Origin: Magnetococcales bacterium
GTDB taxonomy: Bacteria > Pseudomonadota > Magnetococcia > Magnetococcales > UBA8363
Assembly: GCA_015228815.1 (NCBI GenBank)
Contig: JADGCV010000001.1
Coordinates: 124,001-188,000 of the forward strand
Length of the DNA stretch: 64,000 bases
Direction of reading: 5' to 3'
Below the pieces are notes generated by a model. The model worked only from the letters and a program-made list of their open reading frames with translations. It had not been told where the DNA came from and ran no database searches. This document shows positions 7,861 through 46,355 of the stretch, in pieces; position 1 is the first letter of the stretch, and every line of letters starts with the position of its first letter. The position numbers and the translations under genes were made by a program.

Positions 7861-9945
7861 TCAGGCGTCGGCAACTTCTTTCATCGTCAACTTGATCCGC
7901 CCCTGACGATCGATGTCCAATACCTTGACCTTGACCACATCCCCTTCCTTGACCACATCGGTCACCTTGGCCACCCGCTTGTTGGACAACTGGGAAATAT
8001 GAACCAAACCATCCTTGTTGGGAAGAATGTTGACGAAAGCACCGAAATCAGTCACCCGAACCACCTTGCCCTCATAGATCTGCCCCGTCTCGACATCGGA
8101 CACAATCCGCTTGATGATCGATTCGGCCATGGCAGCACTCTCGCCATTGACCGCGGAAATGGCAATGCTGCCATCATCCTCGATGTCGATCTGACATCCC
8201 GTCTCCTCGGTGATGCCGCGAATCACCTTTCCGCCGCTGCCGATGACATCACGAATCTTGTCGGGATTGATCTTGATGGTGAAAATCCGCGGGGCATATT
8301 TGGACAATTCGCTCCGACTCTCGGAAATTCCCTTCTTCATCTCCTCCAGGATGTGCAACCGACCATCACGCGCCTGACGCAAGGCGACCTCCATGATCTC
8401 CCGATTGATCCCGGTGATCTTGATGTCCATCTGCAAGGCGGTGATCCCCTCGGCATTGCCCGCGACCTTGAAATCCATGTCGCCGAAATGATCCTCGTCG
8501 CCAATGATGTCGGACAATACCGCAAACCGATCCCCTTCCTTCACCAACCCCATGGCAATCCCCGCCACCGGCGCCTTCAGGGGAACCCCGGCATCCATCA
8601 TCGCCAACACCGAACCGCAAACCGTCGCCATCGACGAAGAACCATTGGATTCGGTGATTTCGGAGGTGACCCGGATCGTATAGGGAAAAGTCTCCTTGTC
8701 GGGAAGAATGGCACTGATGGCCCGCGTCGCCAACTTGCCATGACCGATCTCCCGCCGTCCCGGAGCACCCATGCGTCCGGTCTCGCCGACACTGTAAGGG
8801 GGAAACGTGTAGTTCAGATAGAAACCATCGCGAAATTCCCCATCCAGGGTTTCCACGATCTGCTCATCCCGCCCCGAACCCAAGGTGACCGCCGCCAGGG
8901 CCTGAGTCTCTCCGCGCGTGAACAAGGCCGTCCCATGGACCCGCGGCAAAATCCCCACCTCGCAGGCAATCCGCCGCACCTGGGTCAACGACCGGCCATC
9001 GATGCGCCGCCCTTCCGAAAGAATCCGCGACCGGATCACCTCCGATTCCATTTTCTTCACTATGTTGCGCACATCATTGGCCTGAGACTTCTCGGGACCG
9101 CCACAAACATCGACCGCCACCTTCTTAAGCGCCGCCAGGACATTCTGCCGCTCCATCTTGTCGGTCTGTTCGTAGGCCCCCCGGATCTCTCCGAGAAAAC
9201 GCGACCGAACCTCCTCCTGCAACACCGGATCAACCTTCGGTTCCTCGACCTGCATCCGCGGCTTGCCACATTCCGCAGCCAACTCGCGAATCGCCGCCAC
9301 CACCGGCTGATAGGCCTCGAACCCCAGCATGACCGCGTCGAGCATCTGCTGTTCGGTGAGAAAATCGACCTCCGACTCGACCATGGTCACCGCGTCCGCC
9401 GTCCCCGCCACCACCAGATCCAGACGGCTCGTCTTCATCTCCTCGGGCGAGGGATTGACCACGAACTGCCCGTCGATCATCCCGACCCGCGCCCCGCCCA
9501 CCGGCCCGTCGAATGGCAACCCCGAAATCGCCAACGCCGCCGAGGCGCCAATCATCGCCACAATGTCCGACGAATTTTCACCATCATAGGAAATCACCGT
9601 GGCCACAACCTGGGTATCCAGGGTATACCCCTTCGGAAACAACGGCCTGAGCGGACGATCGATCAGACGCGAGGTCAATATTTCCTTTTCCGAAGGGCGG
9701 GTCTCTCTCTTGATGAACCCCCCGGGTATCCGCCCCGCCGCCCACGATTTCTCCTGGTAATGCACCCCCAGGGGAAAAAAGTCCATCCCCGGCCTCGGTT
9801 CCTTGTCGGCGACCGCCGTCACCAGGACGATGGTCTCCCCCATCGTCACCAGTACCGCGCCATCCGCCTGCCGGGCAATACGCCCCGTTTCCATCGTCAA
9901 GGTTTTGCGTCCAAATTGGACTGATTTCTTATGTATTTTGAACAT
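7861..9945 (-). CDS. pnp: polyribonucleotide nucleotidyltransferase (PNPase)
   Basis: Phosphorolytic 3'-5' exoribonuclease of the RNA degradosome. The 694 residues have normal domain order: a first RNase PH domain (MEFGRK-like start, [30 protein letters not shown]), a linker, a second RNase PH domain ([35 protein letters not shown]), then KH ([16 protein letters not shown], about residue 560) and S1 ([29 protein letters not shown], about 620-690). It is the last gene of the rimP-nusA-infB-rbfA-truB-rpsO-pnp cluster and lies 52 bases after rpsO, as in many proteobacteria. In E. coli, PNPase autoregulates through the rpsO-pnp leader; whether that holds here is unknown. Confidence 0.98.
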
Positions 9946-9997
9946 TGAGCTCTCTTTTCTCGCTTCATCGGCATCCCGTGCCGACGCCGGCTCCCAA

Positions 9998-10267
9998 TCA
10001 TTTACGCAGATTGAGCCTCTGGATCAGTTCCTGATACCGTCCCTTGTCCTTGCGTTGCACATAGGCCAGCAACCTTCTTCTCAAACCCACCATCTTCAGC
10101 AGACCGCGCCGTGAATGGTGGTCTTTCACATTGATCCGCAGATGTTCCGTCAGATTGTTGATTCGTTCCGTCAACAGCGCCACCTGCACCTCCGGAGAAC
10201 CGGTATCCTTCTCCTTGATGGCAAAATCCTTGATTAACTGTTGTTTTCTTTCCGGGGTCATCGACAT
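9998..10267 (-). CDS. rpsO: 30S ribosomal protein S15
   Basis: An 89-residue protein with the full S15 pattern: [34 protein letters not shown], then [26 protein letters not shown]. It binds 16S rRNA early in 30S assembly (central domain). Length is exactly typical. A ribosome binding site (GGAGATG) lies just upstream of ATG 10267. It is flanked by truB and pnp in the conserved order. Confidence 0.98.
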
Positions 10268-10325
10268 CGGTCATCTCCTTGCAGGAAAAAGTTCACGATT
10301 GAAATTGTTCAACGTTCGCCCGGTG

Positions 10326-11258
10326 TCAGGGAGAATGGAACAGCCGTCTGAGCTTGCACAACCGCCGATGATCGGCCCCGGTTCCCCCCGCCAATTCGCC
10401 GATGGCCGCAAAACGGCCCTCGGGATCCAACAGACGGACAGTCCCCGTGTCACAACCTTCAGCATCAAGCCAAACCGCCTGACCATTCTTGACCTTGTGC
10501 CAGGCATCGACCCGCAGACGCAGTGCCGGGATGTCGTCCAGCACGCGATCCATGGGATACAACACTTCCTTGAAACGACCCTCGGCAACCAGTGCCTCCA
10601 GCCGTTCCAACGGGACCCCCTCCTCCAAAGAGAACCCAAGGGTCCGTGTCCGCAACAATCGATCCAGATGGGCCGGGCAACCCAGGACGTTTCCCAGATC
10701 ACGCGCCAGCGCCCTCATGTAGGCCCCCTTGCCGCTGCGAACGGCGATGCAGGCGATCGCCCCCTCCATCCCCTCCAGCCGGATATCGTGAATCACGATC
10801 TTTCGGGGTTCGAGTTCGAAGACCTCACCGCGGCGTGCTTTCTCATAGGCCCGTTCACCATCGACATGAATGGCGGAAAAAAGAGGCGGCACCTGATCGA
10901 TTTCGCCAAGAAACCGTCCCAGGGCCTGGACAACCGCGGCAGGTTCGGGAACGCCCCCCCCCTCGCGAACCACCCGTCCGGTCGGATCGCAGGTATCGGT
11001 TTCCCGACCAAAGGCGACCCAGCATCGATAACTTTTTTCCCCTTCCAGGACATGAACCAGCGTTTTGGTCGCCTCGCCGAGGGCCACCGGCAGCAACCCC
11101 TCCGAAAATGGGTCGAGGGTTCCCCCGTGTCCCGCCTTGGCAGCCTGGGTAATCCGCCGCACCCGTTCCACCACCCGGGTCGAGGTCATTCCCCGTTCCT
11201 TGAGAATGGCCAGCCATCCATGGATCGCCTTGCCGCGGCGATTGCCTCCACGCCCCAT
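10326..11258 (-). CDS. truB: tRNA pseudouridine(55) synthase
   Basis: Isomerises U55 to pseudouridine in the T-loop of tRNAs. The catalytic Asp lies in GHGGTLDPFSEGLLPVALGEATK, the hallmark of TruB. YRCWVAFGRETDTCDPTGRV and RSGKGAYMRALARDLG are also family motifs. ATG 11258 is chosen because AAGGAG precedes it by 8 bases; an upstream TTG is in frame. At about 310 residues it includes a C-terminal PUA-like part. The ribosome binding site overlaps the rbfA stop codon region, which suggests coupling. Confidence 0.96.
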   Translation of the reverse strand: MGRGGNRRGKAIHGWLAILKERGMTSTRVVERVRRITQAAKAGHGGTLDPFSEGLLPVALGEATKTLVHVLEGEKSYRCWVAFGRETDTCDPTGRVVREGGGVPEPAAVVQALGRFLGEIDQVPPLFSAIHVDGERAYEKARRGEVFELEPRKIVIHDIRLEGMEGAIACIAVRSGKGAYMRALARDLGNVLGCPAHLDRLLRTRTLGFSLEEGVPLERLEALVAEGRFKEVLYPMDRVLDDIPALRLRVDAWHKVKNGQAVWLDAEGCDTGTVRLLDPEGRFAAIGELAGGTGADHRRLCKLRRLFHSP

Positions 11259-37368: not shown

Positions 37369-37740
37369 TCATTTTTCCGGACTTGACTGCTTGTGTGGCA
37401 AAACCTTGGCGAGACCTGGGAAAGACGGGTCATGAAAATCGCCAACCGCCATGAAAGGGTCAAGCTGGTCGAGAAGAAAATGAACACCAAAACCGGTACG
37501 GTGACTCCGTACCAGGTCGCAGGGAAGAGAAATCACGACCGGGTCGATGTGATCATCGATGAACAGCTTGAGCACCGGAGTGTTGACCGCGACGGAAGGC
37601 GTCTCGGGCCGGTACACGGGACGGTTGATCTTGGCCCCGGTCTCGCTGATGTTGCCGGTCACCCCACGAAAAACAAGGTTGTCGGGAAAGGGAAAGTGCA
37701 GTTCGACGGAAATTTGCACCGGAATTCTGGGTTTGCTCAT
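37369..37740 (-). CDS. PilZ-like domain protein
   Basis: 124 residues from ATG 37740 (MSKPRIPVQISVELHF..). The core FRGVTGNISETGAKI fits the (D/N)xSxxG half of PilZ, followed by strands VVISLPCDLVRSHRTGFGVHF. The RxxxR c-di-GMP-binding box expected before the core is not evident (VQISVELHF). It may therefore be a PilZ fold that does not bind c-di-GMP. Small, no signal peptide. Confidence 0.55.
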   Translation of the reverse strand: MSKPRIPVQISVELHFPFPDNLVFRGVTGNISETGAKINRPVYRPETPSVAVNTPVLKLFIDDHIDPVVISLPCDLVRSHRTGFGVHFLLDQLDPFMAVGDFHDPSFPGLAKVLPHKQSSPEK

Positions 37741-38013
37741 GACGATGGCTCTGGGGTCGGTAAGCGCGTTCACGGTGATTTCTGAAGGGCTTGGAAGCGG
37801 TTTTCCATCTGATCGAAAATCCACGAAAATTCCATACCCCGAGAAAATACATTAGAATGCTGGGCTTTATTTTTTATTTTCCTTGCCACTACCGGTAACA
37901 GGAAGATAACTCCTGAAAACGTAAAGGTAAAATTAGAAATAATTATTAAAAATAAAAAATTTTTATCGAAGAATGGAACCTTTTCCGGAATCGATGCGAC
38001 CAGGGGGAACCAT

Positions 38014-38919
38014 TCATGCCGCGGTTGTTACGCAGGCATCGAGTGCGTGAAGGAACTCCCCGGCGTCGCGGAAACGGCGACCGGGGCGTTTTTCCAGGGC
38101 CTGCATGATGATCCGGGACAGGGAAACGGGAAGGTGGGGTTGCAGACGGCAGGGTTCGAGAGGATGGTGCAGCAGGGTATGGTCGAGAAGGGCGGCAAGG
38201 GAATCGCCTGGGAATGGATGATGGCCGGTGGTCATGCGATAGAGGAGGACACCGAGGGAAAAAAGGTCGCTGCGCTGGTCCAGTGCCAGTCCCATGACCT
38301 GTTCGGGAGACATGAAACCGGGAGCGCCCATGGGCGGGGGTGGCGGGGCGTGAAGGGGGTACATGAGGCCAAAATCGGCAAGTTTTACGTGATGATCGGG
38401 AAACAGAAGGAGATTGGTGGGTTTGAGATCACGATGGAGCCAGCCGTGACCGTGCAGGTGGTCAAGGGCAAGCAGGACCTGACGGGCGATGACGATGGCC
38501 AGGGGCAGAGACAGGAAACGGCGGGGAGGAAGCAGTTGTTTGAGGTTCCCGTCGCGCGAGAGTTCCATGACGACATAACGCTGCCCATGATCGCAGGCGT
38601 GGGCGAGAAGGCGGACAATGTTGGGATGGGGAGACCGGAGAAGAAAATCCCAAGGGTCGGGCGGATCGACGGTGGCGACGGGTGGCGACGGGTGGAACAG
38701 TTTGATGGCAACCCATGCCCCGGTATTGGGGTCCCGTGCGGCATGAACCGTTCCGGTGGTCCCTTGCTTGAGTGGAACATGGAGACGGAAACCACCGATC
38801 AAGCGTTGATCGGTGGGATTGCGGTCGATCCAGGCGTTGTCGGGGCTTGATGTCGGAGAATTCCACGGACACGGGGAAGCGGTGTCCGGGAGTTTCGCGT
38901 CAAAGCCTGGGTCAGACAA
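38014..38919 (-). CDS. Ser/Thr protein kinase (Hanks type)
   Basis: 301 residues from TTG 38919, overlapping the carbonic anhydrase stop by 8 bases. Kinase motifs: G-loop LKQGTTGTVHAARD, VAIK (Lys73), HRDLKPTN with Asp164, and DFGLM with Asp182. The activation segment GAPGFMSPEQV and the F-helix DLFSLGVLL follow. The alpha-C Glu is hard to place. The region before HPNIVRL is short and Pro/Asp-rich, so the regulatory salt bridge may be altered. No transmembrane segment or PASTA domains are seen. Probably cytosolic. Confidence 0.85.
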   Translation of the reverse strand: MSDPGFDAKLPDTASPCPWNSPTSSPDNAWIDRNPTDQRLIGGFRLHVPLKQGTTGTVHAARDPNTGAWVAIKLFHPSPPVATVDPPDPWDFLLRSPHPNIVRLLAHACDHGQRYVVMELSRDGNLKQLLPPRRFLSLPLAIVIARQVLLALDHLHGHGWLHRDLKPTNLLLFPDHHVKLADFGLMYPLHAPPPPPMGAPGFMSPEQVMGLALDQRSDLFSLGVLLYRMTTGHHPFPGDSLAALLDHTLLHHPLEPCRLQPHLPVSLSRIIMQALEKRPGRRFRDAGEFLHALDACVTTAA

Positions 38920-39469
38920 GGGGGATGCCCTGGGCGATCAGGCTGTCGCGGTGTTGGGCGGCAAGGATGGTGTAGTGTTCCATGATTCTCTGGGCGCCGA
39001 TGATTTCGTCGTCGGTCCGCTCGCGTGCCTTTTTTGCCGGGCTGCCGAGCCAGAGTTCGCGGGGACCGATCTGCTTTCCGGGGGGGACGAGCGCACCCGC
39101 CCCGACCATGGCCTTGGCCTGGACCACCGCCCGGTCGAGAACGATGGCGCCAATGCCGATCATGGCGTCATCCATGAGGTGACAGGCGTGAAGCGTCACC
39201 TTGTGGCCGATGATGACACGGTTGCCGATGGTCAGTACCGAACCCTGGGGACGGTCCGGTGTTCCCTTGGTGACGTGGAGAATGCATCCATCCTGGATAT
39301 TGGTTTTTTCGCCGATTTCGATGTCGTTGACATCACCGCGGATGATGACTCCCGGCCAGACCGAGGAAAGGGGACCGATTCGGACACGCCCGATGATCAA
39401 GGCATGGGGATGAACGAATGCCTGGGGATGAATCCGGGGAAAAACCCCTTCGAAAGGATATATGGCCAT
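38912..39469 (-). CDS. gamma carbonic anhydrase family protein
   Basis: 185 residues of left-handed beta-helix made of hexapeptide repeats (IGPLSSVWPGVIIRGDVNDIEIGEKT..). The three metal ligands are present at H65 (ILHVTKG), H89 (IIGHKV) and H94 (TLHACHL). Arg44 and Asp46 in IIRGDVN are in the expected places. Members bind Zn/Fe/Co and hydrate CO2, but many close relatives (YrdA/PaaY group) have weak or no activity. ATG 39469 fits the family; longer open frame upstream is antisense to the next gene. The kinase gene overlaps its stop. Confidence 0.88.
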   Translation of the reverse strand: MAIYPFEGVFPRIHPQAFVHPHALIIGRVRIGPLSSVWPGVIIRGDVNDIEIGEKTNIQDGCILHVTKGTPDRPQGSVLTIGNRVIIGHKVTLHACHLMDDAMIGIGAIVLDRAVVQAKAMVGAGALVPPGKQIGPRELWLGSPAKKARERTDDEIIGAQRIMEHYTILAAQHRDSLIAQGIPLV

Positions 39470-39784: not shown

Positions 39785-41803
39785 ATGGTTTCGGGCGTGG
39801 CGTGTCAGGATCCGAAGGTGAAAAAAAACATCGTTTTGATCGTGGATGACGATCCGGACATCCGTCTTTTCCTGCGGCACAAGCTGGTCCGCGAGGGATA
39901 CACGGTGATGGAAGCGGATGATGGAGACCAGGCATTGCTCCGGTTTGGCAATCCGTTGCCCGATCTGGTGCTGCTGGATGCCCATCTGCCGGGAACCGAT
40001 GGTTTCCAAATCTGTGCCGACATGAAAGCCCTGGAGGGGGGCAACGACATTCCCGTCGTCATGATCACCGCCCTGGACGATGATCGATCCGTGGACCGTG
40101 CGTTCGCCGCGGGGGCGGAAGAGTTCGTCACCAAGCCAATCCGATGGCCGGTCCTCAGGCAGCGCATCCGGTTGATCCTGGAGCGGCGTACCTCCATGTT
40201 GCATCTTCAGGACAGCGAAAAACGGTTTCGTCATGTCACCGATTCCACCACCGAGGCGATCATCTCCATGGACGGAATGGGGCTGATCCAGTTCTGGAAC
40301 AAAGGGGCGCAACTGCTGTTCGGCTACACCTCGCACCAGATCATGGGGCTTTCGATCGTCTTGTTGATGCCCGAGGAGATGCGGGCGGAGTTCGAACAGG
40401 CTTTTTTCAACGCGGTGGCACTCGGTTTTCCGCGGGAGCGGGGGGAGACGGTCGAATGCATCGGGCTCAGACAGAACGGCGAAACCTTCCCGATGGAAAT
40501 ATCGCTCGCCGCCTGGCAGATTCCAGGAAAGCCATTCTTTTCGGCGGTGATGCGCGATCTTGGCGAGCGGGCGCGCATTCTGGGAGGTCTGGAAGAGACG
40601 GCGCTGTTCGACAGCCGCATCATCGAACGGATCACCTCGCTTTTGGCCGAGGTCAGTGGCAAGGATCCGATGCGGGTTTCCAAGATGCACATCCGTTCGT
40701 TGATGGAGACCGTTTTTCTCGCCGGGCTCAATCGCGAGGAAGACCGACCGGTATTGCCCAACGTCCTGTTCATGGACCGGGGCTATCCGATCAACACCTA
40801 CAACAAGAAAAAAATAGCGTATCAAACGCTCGAATTGGAAAAAAGCCAGCCCTTCACCATCGATGCCCTGGTGAAATTGGCGCGGGGATTCGATCCGGAA
40901 AATACGGTTTTGGCGGTCTGTCCGCAGAAGAACGATCCGCGCAATCTGGAAATCTGGGGGGCGGTGTTTCAGGAGGACAGCGACGGGCCGCGATTGCATC
41001 CGATGGTGCATCATGCGCCGCCGGAAAATTTTCTTTCGGTCTATTCCAACCGGGCGGGATCGTTGGTGGTCTCCTGGGGCAGCCGGGTCTTGGCCCGGTT
41101 TCATGCGGGACACTTTTCGTTGCCGGGAAACTCTTCCTTCGAGACCAGCCTCATCGGACAGGCATTGTTTCGCACGGTGCGCACACACCCCGAGTTTGCC
41201 GAACACGGCGAGGTCTACTGGAGCCGGTACCGCAATTTCATTCAAAGGTTGCTGGTGGAGATCGGGCGTGGTGGATTTGGCGGGATCATCATCTGGGTCC
41301 CCGACATCGACGACCGGCGTCCAAAACTGTCGCTGGTGACCCGCTATCGTTTTACCAATGCCACCGAGGCGTCACAATTGTTGGGGGGGTATTGTGGATG
41401 CCGGCGGGATGAGCTTCAGGGAAAAGGAAAGAAAAAACGCAAGGAAATGCGCGAAATGGCGCGCAAGGTGTTGTTTCACGCCAAGAGAATGGCCCATCTG
41501 AGCCGGGTGGACGGAGCAATGATCCTGTCGCACCGTCTGCGTCCCCTTTCCTTCGGTACGATGCTTTCGGCCCAGCGTTGGCGGGGGCGGACGCAGTATT
41601 GCCTGGACGATCACGGTGCCGACACGGTGGATGTCGATCTGGAAAAATACGGAACCCGTCATGCTTCGGCGGTGAATCTGGTGGGGGCCTATCCCGGGGT
41701 GGTGGCCTTCGTCATCTCCCAGGATGGACCCATCGCCGGCATGATCGCCTCGACCACCGATGACCGGGTCCTGTGGATTCCCGACCTGATGAATCGCTTC
41801 TGA
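39785..41803 (+). CDS. REC-PAS-sensor-diadenylate cyclase (DAC)-like signalling protein
   Basis: 672 residues with four parts. REC (residues ~15-135) has acidic pair VDDD (20-23), phosphoacceptor Asp65 in LVLLDAH and Lys117 in FVTKPI. PAS (~143-265) has IISMDGMGLIQFWNKGAQLLFG. A central region (~325-480) resembles sensor domains that precede DAC (YPINTYNKKKIAYQTLELEK..). The C-terminal DAC-like domain (~480-660) has the DGA motif at 576-578 in VDGAMILSHRLRPLSFGTML and GTRHASAV at 623-630. DisA-type cyclases have GTRHRAA; here the second Arg is Ala627. Diadenylate cyclases make c-di-AMP; activity here is uncertain. No transmembrane segment. Confidence 0.7.
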   Translation: MVSGVACQDPKVKKNIVLIVDDDPDIRLFLRHKLVREGYTVMEADDGDQALLRFGNPLPDLVLLDAHLPGTDGFQICADMKALEGGNDIPVVMITALDDDRSVDRAFAAGAEEFVTKPIRWPVLRQRIRLILERRTSMLHLQDSEKRFRHVTDSTTEAIISMDGMGLIQFWNKGAQLLFGYTSHQIMGLSIVLLMPEEMRAEFEQAFFNAVALGFPRERGETVECIGLRQNGETFPMEISLAAWQIPGKPFFSAVMRDLGERARILGGLEETALFDSRIIERITSLLAEVSGKDPMRVSKMHIRSLMETVFLAGLNREEDRPVLPNVLFMDRGYPINTYNKKKIAYQTLELEKSQPFTIDALVKLARGFDPENTVLAVCPQKNDPRNLEIWGAVFQEDSDGPRLHPMVHHAPPENFLSVYSNRAGSLVVSWGSRVLARFHAGHFSLPGNSSFETSLIGQALFRTVRTHPEFAEHGEVYWSRYRNFIQRLLVEIGRGGFGGIIIWVPDIDDRRPKLSLVTRYRFTNATEASQLLGGYCGCRRDELQGKGKKKRKEMREMARKVLFHAKRMAHLSRVDGAMILSHRLRPLSFGTMLSAQRWRGRTQYCLDDHGADTVDVDLEKYGTRHASAVNLVGAYPGVVAFVISQDGPIAGMIASTTDDRVLWIPDLMNRF

Positions 41804-42487: not shown

Positions 42488-45400
42488 CTACAGCCAGTTG
42501 CCCATGAGAATGAAGGGGGCCCAGTAGTAGGGATGGGCGTGGGAAGGATCGGGAGAAGGATCCCGTCGAAGGGGGGCATCCATCGACACTGGCGTTGTCC
42601 GAGAATCGTCGCTCTTATTCCCTTCGCCGCGAATGAATGCCGTCATGGTACGTTGCAATGCCTCCGCCTTGGTCAGTCGCTCCACTTCCCGCCGGCGGTA
42701 GAAATCCGCCATGAATCGTCCCGTGGAGGCATCGTCCACGGGCCAGAGGGTGGCGAGCACCGCCGCCGCTCCCTTGTGTTGGGCAAGTGCCCCAAACCCC
42801 TCTACCTCCCGTCCCTGGGCATCGGTTCCGCCCACGGCCGTCTCGCAGGCCGACAGGGTCAGCAGATCCACGTCGTGAAACCGGTCCTTTCCACGTTTGA
42901 ACTCGGCCAGGGTCAATCGCTTTCCTCCTCCGAGAAGCAGAAAAGAGTCCATCTCCGTCCCCGGACGAAAGTCGAAGTGGCTCGCGATATGGAATACCTG
43001 GCTCTTCGCCAATGCCATGGTTTTCTTCAGTGTGGTGTCGTCGAAGGCCTCATCGAGATGCACTTTACCTGGAAGCACCCCTCGGGTATCTCCGGCGCCC
43101 TCAAGGATGATGGCGTCGAGTTCGTCCCGCACCGCCGGCAGCGGAACCAGGTGTTCACCCCCGCCAGTACTGACCCCGAAGCCGGCGACCCGCCACATAC
43201 CGGACGGACTTTGCCATCCGCTGGCACCACCGGCGACGGTGAAAAGGGTGACCGGGTGTTTTTCGATGAGCCACCGCTCCCCATCATGGAGCGCCGCCAG
43301 GGGAAGATAACGAAGGCTTCCCGTCAGGGAGACCATCAAGGTGGCATTGACGGGAAGATCCGCCGCGACCGGTCCGATCAGGAGATCATACCATTCCTTC
43401 GCCATGGGTTTCGGGTCGTTTTCAGGATCGGCGAACAATTTTCTCGATTGGATCACCCGTTCGGCAAGGTCGGCAAGGGTCACCGGCGCCGAACGGGTCA
43501 CGATCGTTTCTGGGGTGATCACCAGAATGCGCAGCCGATCCGTGCCGGGAAGATAGTTCAGGACCACGACACTGTGTCCCATTTTTTCCAGTGCATTCTG
43601 CAATCGGCCAAGGTCTGTCCGATCCGTCTCGTTGAAGGCGACCGCATGGGCCTTGTCTCCGGCCTTTCGGAAAGCCTCGCGAATCTCCACAAGATGGTGT
43701 TGGAAATCCTCGACCGCATTGGCGATAACAGCGTCGAGGGCCAAAAGTTGCCGTTCCTGTTCGGGTGTGCGTACCTTGAGTCGGGCCAACGGTACGCGCT
43801 TCTTTCCCAATACCCCGAGCCGCCGTAAACGTTCTGTCAGTCCCTCCTCCAGGGGTTGTTCGAAGAGGGCGAAGGGAATCACGGAGTTCCGGGGGTCTTT
43901 TCCCAGGTCGCGGCGTATATAGTCGAAATATTCCTCTTCCTTCAACATTGCCAGCACCCGTTCCGCCTCCATCAGCCGCCCCTGGTCGATGAGACGGTGC
44001 GCCAGCCCTTCGTATACCCCCTTCTTGTCGGTCAGGAAGGTTCTTTGCAGGTCCTTTTCCATTCCGGAGATTCCTCCCCGAAGCTTCTGGACGATATTGA
44101 CCGCCCGCTTGCCGAAGAAAATCGCGCTGCCAGGGTCCCCGAGCTTTTCGAACAGTTGACTCATGCTGTATTCCACGCGCCACTGCAATTCCGGGTTTTG
44201 GGCGTTTATGGCGAGGGCCAGGGCGCGACCGTGGAGCGGCTCCGCCTTGTCATGAGCGCCCATGGCCTGGTATAGCAAGGCCAGATTGTTGAGGCTCCAG
44301 ACGGTATCGGGATGGTCCGGCCCCAGGGTTTGCTCCCGGATCGCCAGGGCACGTCTGTACAAGGGTTTCGCTCTGGCATGGGCCCCCATGTCCTGGTAGA
44401 GAACGGCCAGATTGTTGAGACTTGCGGCAGTATCGGGATGTTTTGCTCCCAGGATTTTCTCCTGGATCGCCAGGGCTTCCTTGAAGCGGGATTCCGCTTT
44501 GTCATGGTTTCCCATGTCCTGATAGAGCGTGCCCAGATTGACGAGGCTTATGGCGGTGTCGGGATGATCCGGTCCCAGCGACTTTTCACGGATCGCCAGG
44601 GCGTGCCTGTAGCGGGACTCCGCTTCGGCGTAGGCGCCCATGTCGTGGTACAGCACGGCCAGATTGTCAAGGGTCGTGGCAGTACGGGGATGATCTGTCC
44701 CGAGCGACTTTTCCTTGACGGCCAGGGCCTGCCTGAGAAGGGACTCCGCAGCGGAATAACTGCCGATGTTCTTGTACAGCATTGCCAGGTTGTTGAAACT
44801 CGTGGCGGTATCGGGATGATCCGGTCCCAGGGACTTCTCGCGAATCGCCAGGGCACGCTTGTAGCAGGACTGGGCCTCGTCCTGGTCACCCATGTCCTGA
44901 TAGAGCAAGGCCAGATTGTTGAGACCCGTGGCGGTCTGGGGATGATCGGGTCCCAAGGATTTTTCCCAGATCGTCATGGCGCGTTGGGCCAGGGGGAGCG
45001 CCGCAATCGGGTTGCCCATTTCCCGGTAGAGCATTGCCAGGTTGTTGAGGCTTGTGGCGGTATCGGGATGATCCGGTCCCAGGGTGTTTTCCCGGATGGT
45101 CAGGGCGCGTTTGTAACTGGATTCCGCCTCGGAAAAGGCACCGATGTTCTTGTTCAGCGAGGCCAGGTTGTTGAGGCTCCTGGCGGTGTCGGGATGATCC
45201 GGTCCCAGGGTGTTTTCCCGGATGGTCAGGATACGCCGGGCCAGGGGGATTGCCGCAGCGTGGTTTCCCATTTCCTTGTGCAGCATGGCCAGATTGTTGA
45301 GGCTGACGATGGTATCGGGATGATCCGGTCCCAAGGTGTTTTCCCGGATTTCCAGGGCGCGCCGGGCCAGGGGAAGCGCCGCGGAGAACTGTCCGGCGTG

Positions 45401-46102
45401 GGAAAGGTCGATTATTTTCTGATTGAGCGTTTCCGCCTCGATCCGATCCCTTCGCCTGGACTTTTCCTGTTCCCAGGCCGCATCGAACCATTCGGCCTCC
45501 GTGCGTACCGCCGCCACTGCCCAGCCCTTTTTCAAAAACAACGCAAAATCAGCCTGGGGTCCGATGCGATAGGCCTCGTCGTCGGGAATGGTGGGGAGCG
45601 ACGATTCGTAAAGTACACGGGCCTTTCCGGGGTCATTGGCGAAAAGATGGAGGTGGCCAAGATTGACGGTCCAGGAGAAATTTTCCGGGGCCGATTCGTG
45701 GGCCTTCCGGGTTGGTTCCATCGCCTCGGCAAACCTTCCGGCCAGAAGCAGGCCCCAGCCGAGCGCGGCATGACCTTCGGCAAATTCCGGCGCCAGCCGG
45801 GTCGATTCCTTCAGGTCGGTAATGGCGGCATCGAGCCGTTCCTGTTGCAGCAAGATTGCCCCGCGAAGCCAGTGGGCGAGGGCATGATCGGGTTGCAGGG
45901 CGATCACCTGATCCAACAGGCCCGTGGCTTCCTCCAGATTTCCCCCTTCCTGGGCCGTGAGCGCCCGATCGTACAGCTCCTGGACCGGAGAGACGGTGGC
46001 CAATACCGTGTCGCTTTTCCAAAGCGTTTCCTCGGCCCGGATGGGGAAGACGGGAATCGAGCCCAGAAGGGCAACGATTGCGACGGCGATGAGATGGCGC
46101 AT
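42488..46102 (-). CDS. secreted TPR-CHAT (caspase-like) protein
   Basis: About 1204 residues from ATG 46102, which follows AAAAGGG and starts a Sec-like signal peptide (MRHLIAVAIVALLGSIPVFP). ATG 46159 is an alternative. Residues ~30-220 hold TPRs, then nine tandem 42-residue kinesin-light-chain TPRs (about 254-631; ENTLGPDHPDT..SLNNLA.LY). The C-terminal CHAT domain has the expected His1042 in FHIASHFDF and Cys1086 in LTLSACETAVGG, so the catalytic dyad is intact. CHAT proteins are cysteine peptidases of the caspase/separase clan. A secreted version would act outside the cytoplasm. Confidence 0.8.
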   Translation of the reverse strand: MRHLIAVAIVALLGSIPVFPIRAEETLWKSDTVLATVSPVQELYDRALTAQEGGNLEEATGLLDQVIALQPDHALAHWLRGAILLQQERLDAAITDLKESTRLAPEFAEGHAALGWGLLLAGRFAEAMEPTRKAHESAPENFSWTVNLGHLHLFANDPGKARVLYESSLPTIPDDEAYRIGPQADFALFLKKGWAVAAVRTEAEWFDAAWEQEKSRRRDRIEAETLNQKIIDLSHAGQFSAALPLARRALEIRENTLGPDHPDTIVSLNNLAMLHKEMGNHAAAIPLARRILTIRENTLGPDHPDTARSLNNLASLNKNIGAFSEAESSYKRALTIRENTLGPDHPDTATSLNNLAMLYREMGNPIAALPLAQRAMTIWEKSLGPDHPQTATGLNNLALLYQDMGDQDEAQSCYKRALAIREKSLGPDHPDTATSFNNLAMLYKNIGSYSAAESLLRQALAVKEKSLGTDHPRTATTLDNLAVLYHDMGAYAEAESRYRHALAIREKSLGPDHPDTAISLVNLGTLYQDMGNHDKAESRFKEALAIQEKILGAKHPDTAASLNNLAVLYQDMGAHARAKPLYRRALAIREQTLGPDHPDTVWSLNNLALLYQAMGAHDKAEPLHGRALALAINAQNPELQWRVEYSMSQLFEKLGDPGSAIFFGKRAVNIVQKLRGGISGMEKDLQRTFLTDKKGVYEGLAHRLIDQGRLMEAERVLAMLKEEEYFDYIRRDLGKDPRNSVIPFALFEQPLEEGLTERLRRLGVLGKKRVPLARLKVRTPEQERQLLALDAVIANAVEDFQHHLVEIREAFRKAGDKAHAVAFNETDRTDLGRLQNALEKMGHSVVVLNYLPGTDRLRILVITPETIVTRSAPVTLADLAERVIQSRKLFADPENDPKPMAKEWYDLLIGPVAADLPVNATLMVSLTGSLRYLPLAALHDGERWLIEKHPVTLFTVAGGASGWQSPSGMWRVAGFGVSTGGGEHLVPLPAVRDELDAIILEGAGDTRGVLPGKVHLDEAFDDTTLKKTMALAKSQVFHIASHFDFRPGTEMDSFLLLGGGKRLTLAEFKRGKDRFHDVDLLTLSACETAVGGTDAQGREVEGFGALAQHKGAAAVLATLWPVDDASTGRFMADFYRRREVERLTKAEALQRTMTAFIRGEGNKSDDSRTTPVSMDAPLRRDPSPDPSHAHPYYWAPFILMGNWL
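44210..45343. repeat. nine 126-bp tandem repeats within TPR-CHAT gene
   Basis: Nine in-frame head-to-tail units of 126 bp each encode a 42-residue TPR (consensus E(N/K)(T/S)LGPDHPDTA.SLNNLA.LY..MG....A......ALAI.). Nucleotide similarity between neighbours is high, so copy number can change by recombination without frameshift. Confidence 0.85.
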
Positions 46103-46355
46103 GGGATGACCCTTTTCCAGGTTGATCCGCGAATCGGCATTATTTTCAGAATTTTCCATGCGTCGAACCGCCGACCTTCCGTAGTGGACTCCTTGCGTGG
46201 TATCCCCGAAGGATAGCCTGGGTTACGAAGCGAAAAAAGGGAAACGAAAATTTTTACTTTTATTAATTTCATGGCGGGGAGTACGATACAGGCAAACAGA
46301 GCCATTTTGTATCGCCTGACATCGGGCCAACCCATGCATGAAAGGATTCCGAGCC

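Follow-up and report, generated by a model that had tools for sequence, protein, structure and literature searches.

The window analysed here is a stretch of 64,000 nucleotides from a bacterium of the Magnetococcales, an order with many magnet-sensing species, and the gene of interest is an open reading frame of 672 amino acids at 39785-41803 on its (+) strand. The longest reading of the frame begins at an ATG at 39785, the start from which residues are numbered below. The orthologues begin at the equivalent of a Met/Val-Lys-Lys-Asn sequence, about 11 residues further downstream, and therefore the GTG at 39818 is the likelier start, which makes 39818..41803 (+) the likeliest coding sequence. 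An AGGA lies a little upstream of this GTG. Divergent from the gene are a hexapeptide gamma-carbonic-anhydrase-like gene at 38912-39469 and a Ser/Thr protein kinase gene at 38014-38919, both on the (-) strand, as the first-pass annotation of this DNA had described. Past the kinase comes a PilZ-domain gene (37369-37824), of the c-di-GMP receptor type, and this synteny is kept in orthologous loci. Downstream, on the opposite strand and convergent to the gene, lies a large TPR-CHAT gene (42488-46159). Neither a histidine kinase nor a known c-di-AMP effector gene was found adjoining 39785-41803. A neighbour common to the related genes throughout the order was also sought and none was found; their synteny is only local, within the genus or within close groups.

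From Pfam profiles and fold comparison, the domain order of the protein is receiver (REC), PAS, DACNV and a C-terminal domain resembling the diadenylate cyclase (DAC) domain. The receiver spans residues 17-129 (39833..40171, +; PF00072, 6.5e-25, 87.9 bits) and has all the residues of its pocket, i.e., VDDD at 20-23, the phospho-acceptor Asp65 (39977-39979, +, by motif position), Thr95 and Lys117 (40133-40135, +, by motif position). The acidic pocket, the acceptor Asp, the Thr and the Lys are invariant in 21 REC-PAS homologues. A PADLOC match of the protein to PD-T4-6 was rejected as an identification, since it spans the receiver region alone. The PAS domain follows at residues 147-257 (40223..40555, +; PF00989, 2.1e-11), so that the earlier description of a complete receiver with Asp65 and Lys117, followed by PAS, is borne out. 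What had been called a sensor between PAS and the C-terminus is a named Pfam domain, DACNV, a probable sensor domain at residues 301-394 (40685..40966, +; PF21751, 2.3e-12), with a score of 47.3 bits against a cut-off of 27. Between this domain and the DAC-like part lies a family-conserved middle segment of beta hairpins and helices, defined from the alignment, the conservation per segment and the model (residues 395-490; 40967..41254, +). In a full-length structural model a continuous predicted helix joins REC to PAS with low inter-domain confidence, and with a pTM of 0.50 we make no claim about the arrangement of the domains beyond this helix.

The C-terminal part extends from about residue 491 to 672 (41255..41800, +). 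The Pfam DAC profile (PF02457) matches residues 573-650 with 13.8 bits for the whole protein and 16.6 bits for the C-terminal part alone, in both cases under the cut-off of 27, and a search of the PDB by sequence gave no convincing relatives. Seen for this single protein, these two results are what would be expected if the DGA and GTRH pattern were a chance match in a domain of unrelated fold. That possibility is largely refuted by comparisons of structure and of profiles. An AlphaFold model of the core (residues 263-672, built with 55 homologues; mean pLDDT 85.4, pTM 0.79) was compared with the PDB, and the top 40 matches, which include all those with a probability above 0.9, are DisA, CdaA, CdaM or DacA. 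The Foldseek E-values are modest (best 1.5e-3), which is explained in part by a query of which the DAC domain makes up only about half, and the target-normalised TM-scores are 0.3-0.55. When the family profile was aligned by hhalign with a profile of canonical DACs, most of which came from Desulfobacterota genomes, the probability was 95.5 and the E-value 1.5e-8, with DGA on DGA, GTRH on GTRH and SQD on SEE in register. Furthermore, some homologues score at or near the Pfam DAC cut-off, and the domain directly upstream is DACNV, the Pfam name of which refers to DAC. A chance resemblance is, in view of this, very improbable.

The model and the profile alignment thus indicate a DAC fold with its pocket motifs in register. 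In the model DGA is found in a helix-to-strand loop, GTRH at the N-terminus of a helix and SQDGP in a strand-strand loop, and the ATP pocket of CdaA is built from the same kinds of secondary-structure element (PMC7288161); the predicted loops therefore stand where a nucleotide pocket would be lined, as the proposal of a DAC-like active site had demanded. Within the core, conservation is highest in the two segments that carry these motifs. The suggested profile check gave a divided answer, in that the match to PF02457, although regarded as real, stays below threshold, while DACNV exceeds its own cut-off. Nearly all Magnetococcales proteins with DACNV share this sub-threshold DAC score. We assign the protein to the DACNV-DAC family and leave it outside the canonical PF02457 DACs, because it falls below the Pfam cut-off and lacks the full GxRHR motif. 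The earlier reading of a receiver-PAS-sensor protein with a DAC-type C-terminus in a proteobacterium holds, with Pfam domains and fold match in agreement.

The putative active site was examined residue by residue in an alignment of 55 homologues. GGII at residues 499-502 (41279..41290, +), in the first DAC strand, is the likely equivalent of the GALI motif described for CdaA (PMC7288161), and its Gly499 is invariant; the position of the GALI Leu is Ile, Thr, Ser or Ala in the family if this motif register is assumed. A variable stretch of 60 residues (511-570) separates this strand from DGA (residues 576-578; 41510..41518, +), which falls on the canonical DGA and in which Asp576 and Ala578 are invariant and Gly577 occurs in 54/55. 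The equivalent of GxRHR is GTRH followed by Ala (residues 623-627; 41651..41665, +), which keeps the Gly, Thr, Arg and His and has Ala in place of the third-position Arg; Gly623, Arg625 and His626 are invariant and Thr624 is conserved in 47/55. DGA, GTRH and Ala627 all lie where the first-pass annotation had placed them. The canonical (V/I)SEE site reads ISQD, so that the Ser and the acidic residue are kept while the middle Glu is replaced by Gln. It forms part of an SQDGP loop (residues 645-649; 41717..41731, +) with Ser645, Asp647, Gly648 and Pro649 invariant in 55, and SQDGP, or SHDGP, is near-invariant across the homologues in place of SEE.

A review of the ATP contacts of CdaA lists as side-chain ligands a Leu, an Asp, a Thr, an Arg, a His, a Ser and a metal-binding Glu, with the third Arg of RHR unlisted (PMC7288161). 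The equivalents Asp576, Arg625, His626, Ser645 and the acidic Asp647 are invariant in the 55 homologues. In the Leptospira CdaA, activity is lost upon mutation D172A or R203A, which correspond to the DGA Asp and the first Arg (PMC12974146). Mutation of RHR as a whole also abolishes activity in published work, but such mutants do not isolate the third residue (PMC3328451, PMC13022847). This bears on the suggestion that RHA marks an inactive or altered enzyme. Position 627 varies throughout the family (Asn in 23, Ala in 11, Thr in 6, Ser in 5, Gly in 4, His in 2, Arg in 2, and others), and canonical DACs that score 117-127 bits also lack the third Arg, with motifs such as GLRHTAA and GTRHHAA. 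The genomes in which such canonical DACs were seen (loci L120-L124 and L128) are labelled Desulfobacterota, Syntrophaceae or Deltaproteobacteria. From the variability of the position, the canonical counter-examples and the CdaA contact list it follows that Ala627 is weak evidence for a loss of function, and the suggestion fails; the reading of Ala627 as the mark of a dead enzyme was rejected on the first two of these.

The protein is no lone oddity: it is one of three paralogues in its genome and belongs to an order-wide family. In a Pseudomonadota sample of 299 genomes, 48 from Magnetococcales and 251 from elsewhere, DACNV occurs in 43/48 of the former and in 0/251 of the latter. Most Magnetococcales genera have a single DACNV protein, usually standalone and about 420 amino acids long, with a core of about 400. 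The genus of the window has three, like the genome itself: two of the REC-PAS form and one with GAF. The second paralogue in this genome (contig 11) is likewise of the REC-PAS form and carries GTRHG; the third (contig 13) is of the GAF form and carries GARHT. The gene of the GAF-type paralogue (8802-10595 of locus L008, G000:C13) adjoins a cluster of flagellin, FliD-like and FliS-like genes. In a tree of the family the REC-PAS forms make up one strongly supported clade within Magnetococcales and the GAF-type forms a separate clade; the fused-architecture label requires at least three changes on the tree, and one fused sequence (L043) is placed among standalone ones. The domain order REC-PAS-DACNV-DAC may already be catalogued in earlier literature.

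Homology to the family extends over the full core, as judged from the alignment of 55 sequences and from blastp over about 410 amino acids. DACNV-DAC proteins of Desulfobacterota, Myxococcota, Methylobacter and Nitrospira have the same two-domain core and align over its full length; in comparison with them, the present protein has REC-PAS in front, Ala as the third RHR residue and a DAC part further from PF02457. DACNV was found in 5/148 sampled genomes of the phylum of Desulfogranum, including the genome at the centre of the search. Two of the outside members have an intact RHR and score higher on the Pfam DAC profile, one from Nitrospira (L103) with 27.4 bits, over the DAC cut-off, and one from Methylobacter (L102) with 24.0 bits.

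A second DAC-like family was observed in Magnetococcales at three loci (L109, 1323-5039; L111, 2253-5871; L110, 2495-3448), one of them from the genus of the window. Its cluster consists of a protein of about 510 amino acids (a Pfam scan of one gave no match), the DAC-like protein and an AAA+ ATPase, an arrangement of three genes that L109 and L111 showed. These DAC-like proteins carry the motifs GARHAT, GGRHAS or GGRHDS and end in SQDGP. They share with the DACNV-DAC family this DAC-like C-terminus and, as judged by eye, a similar beta segment before it, but differ in having no DACNV, REC or PAS and in being clustered with the AAA+ gene. The cluster may be a module for conflict through nucleotide signalling or for quality control.

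The PgpH-type 7TM-HD proteins are the family to which known c-di-AMP phosphodiesterases belong. The window's genome encodes an intact-looking member with 7TMR-HDED, 7TM and HD domains (contig 29), and its gene stands in a miaB-phoH-pgpH-ybeY-lnt cluster. PgpH is present in 46/48 Magnetococcales genomes and in 1/251 other sampled Pseudomonadota. A canonical DAC was not found in the window's genome, and the only DAC matches over the cut-off in the whole order are one DACNV protein (G019) and two proteins from the second divergent family. Presence of PgpH together with absence of a canonical DAC fits the DACNV-DAC proteins as the source of the PgpH substrate. PgpH and DACNV each characterise the same clade, so that their co-occurrence amounts to a single evolutionary observation, and the PgpH cluster is old and conserved. 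Outside Magnetococcales, 73/251 sampled Pseudomonadota have canonical DACs. Of these genomes, 69 belong to one family (f18) and have a canonical DAC without PgpH, which counts against the argument from pairing. The genomes of this non-Magnetococcales family are small and very often have a canonical DAC of CdaA size. From the same 73/251 it is seen that the synthesis of c-di-AMP, a compound which had been described as uncommon in proteobacteria, is patchy rather than exceptional there. The c-di-AMP riboswitch RF00379 occurs in some, not all, c-di-AMP bacteria; in the 48 Magnetococcales genomes it was found in none. Among the papers searched, none on c-di-AMP signalling in Magnetococcales was found.

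In relation to canonical CdaA/DacA, DisA and CdaM (PF02457), the protein has the predicted DAC fold in common and DGA, GxRH and Ser-x-acidic in register, and differs by its score below the Pfam cut-off, by SQDGP for SEE, by the missing third Arg, by the variable 511-570 stretch and by having no transmembrane or DNA-binding part. A parallel in layout is offered by the REC-PAS-GGDEF regulators of the PleD/WspR kind, which are c-di-GMP synthases where the receiver controls a C-terminal cyclase that must pair face to face. The likeness is the phospho-receiver ahead of a C-terminal dinucleotide cyclase, here a predicted one; the output domain is DAC-fold instead of GGDEF, and the two cyclase domains are non-homologous.

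The explanation we favour, and consider fairly probable on the sequence and model evidence, is that the protein is an active, divergent DAC under two-component control that probably makes c-di-AMP. A histidine kinase would phosphorylate Asp65, and signals through PAS and DACNV would act together with this phosphorylation, so that the C-terminal DAC-fold domains of two chains come to face each other. Two NTPs, likeliest ATP, would then be joined by this pair into a cyclic dinucleotide, likeliest c-di-AMP, and its degradation would fall to the PgpH-type phosphodiesterase of the genome. Receivers often dimerise upon phosphorylation. DAC catalysis, for its part, requires two facing domains (PMC6368335, PMC7288161), and when these properties are combined with the predicted REC-PAS helix, DAC pairing driven by phosphorylation becomes a natural proposal. 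For this protein we infer catalysis, specificity for ATP, c-di-AMP as product and control by dimerisation alike.

Two other readings of the same residues must be weighed. The DAC-fold domain could bind a nucleotide, ATP or c-di-AMP, without catalysis, so that the protein would be a two-component-linked nucleotide sensor. Its conserved ligand residues fit binding without turnover equally well, it has diverged from the canonical DACs and lost the third RHR Arg, and the several paralogues of the genus could include sensors. Against this stand the invariance in 55/55 of the GxRH His and of Asp647 at the acidic metal-ligand position, the occurrence of third-position substitutions also in canonical DACs of high score, and a genome with no detected canonical DAC to supply c-di-AMP; a sensor is in this light unlikely, if worth keeping in mind. 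Alternatively the enzyme could be active with another product, based on a different base, a linear dinucleotide or a larger ring, with SQDGP and the variable third RHR position as signs of shifted specificity. The near-invariance of SQDGP/SHDGP instead of SEE in the 55 homologues would agree with this, and so would the absence of the known riboswitch from the order (48 genomes) and, in the assumed motif register, the replacement by Ile, Thr, Ser or Ala of the Leu that touches adenine with its side chain in CdaA (PMC7288161). The near-universal PgpH-type c-di-AMP phosphodiesterase of the order argues the other way, as do the canonical relatives, which use ATP, and positive evidence for another base is lacking, which makes a different product rather doubtful. 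It is just as doubtful that the SQDGP subfamily, wired to receivers, makes a signal other than c-di-AMP as a separate phosphorelay-controlled messenger system, in which each cell would have three synthases that are gated in different ways.

Function is poorly judged from the third Arg of RHR, which is of consequence for the annotation of divergent DACs and for their dismissal as dead. If the divergent DAC described here is active, a DAC-fold cyclase would in this case be controlled directly by a receiver, in analogy to the c-di-GMP response regulators. Signalling of the c-di-AMP type would then also be indicated for Magnetococcales, an order that, as far as its sequences tell, probably has its own form of it.
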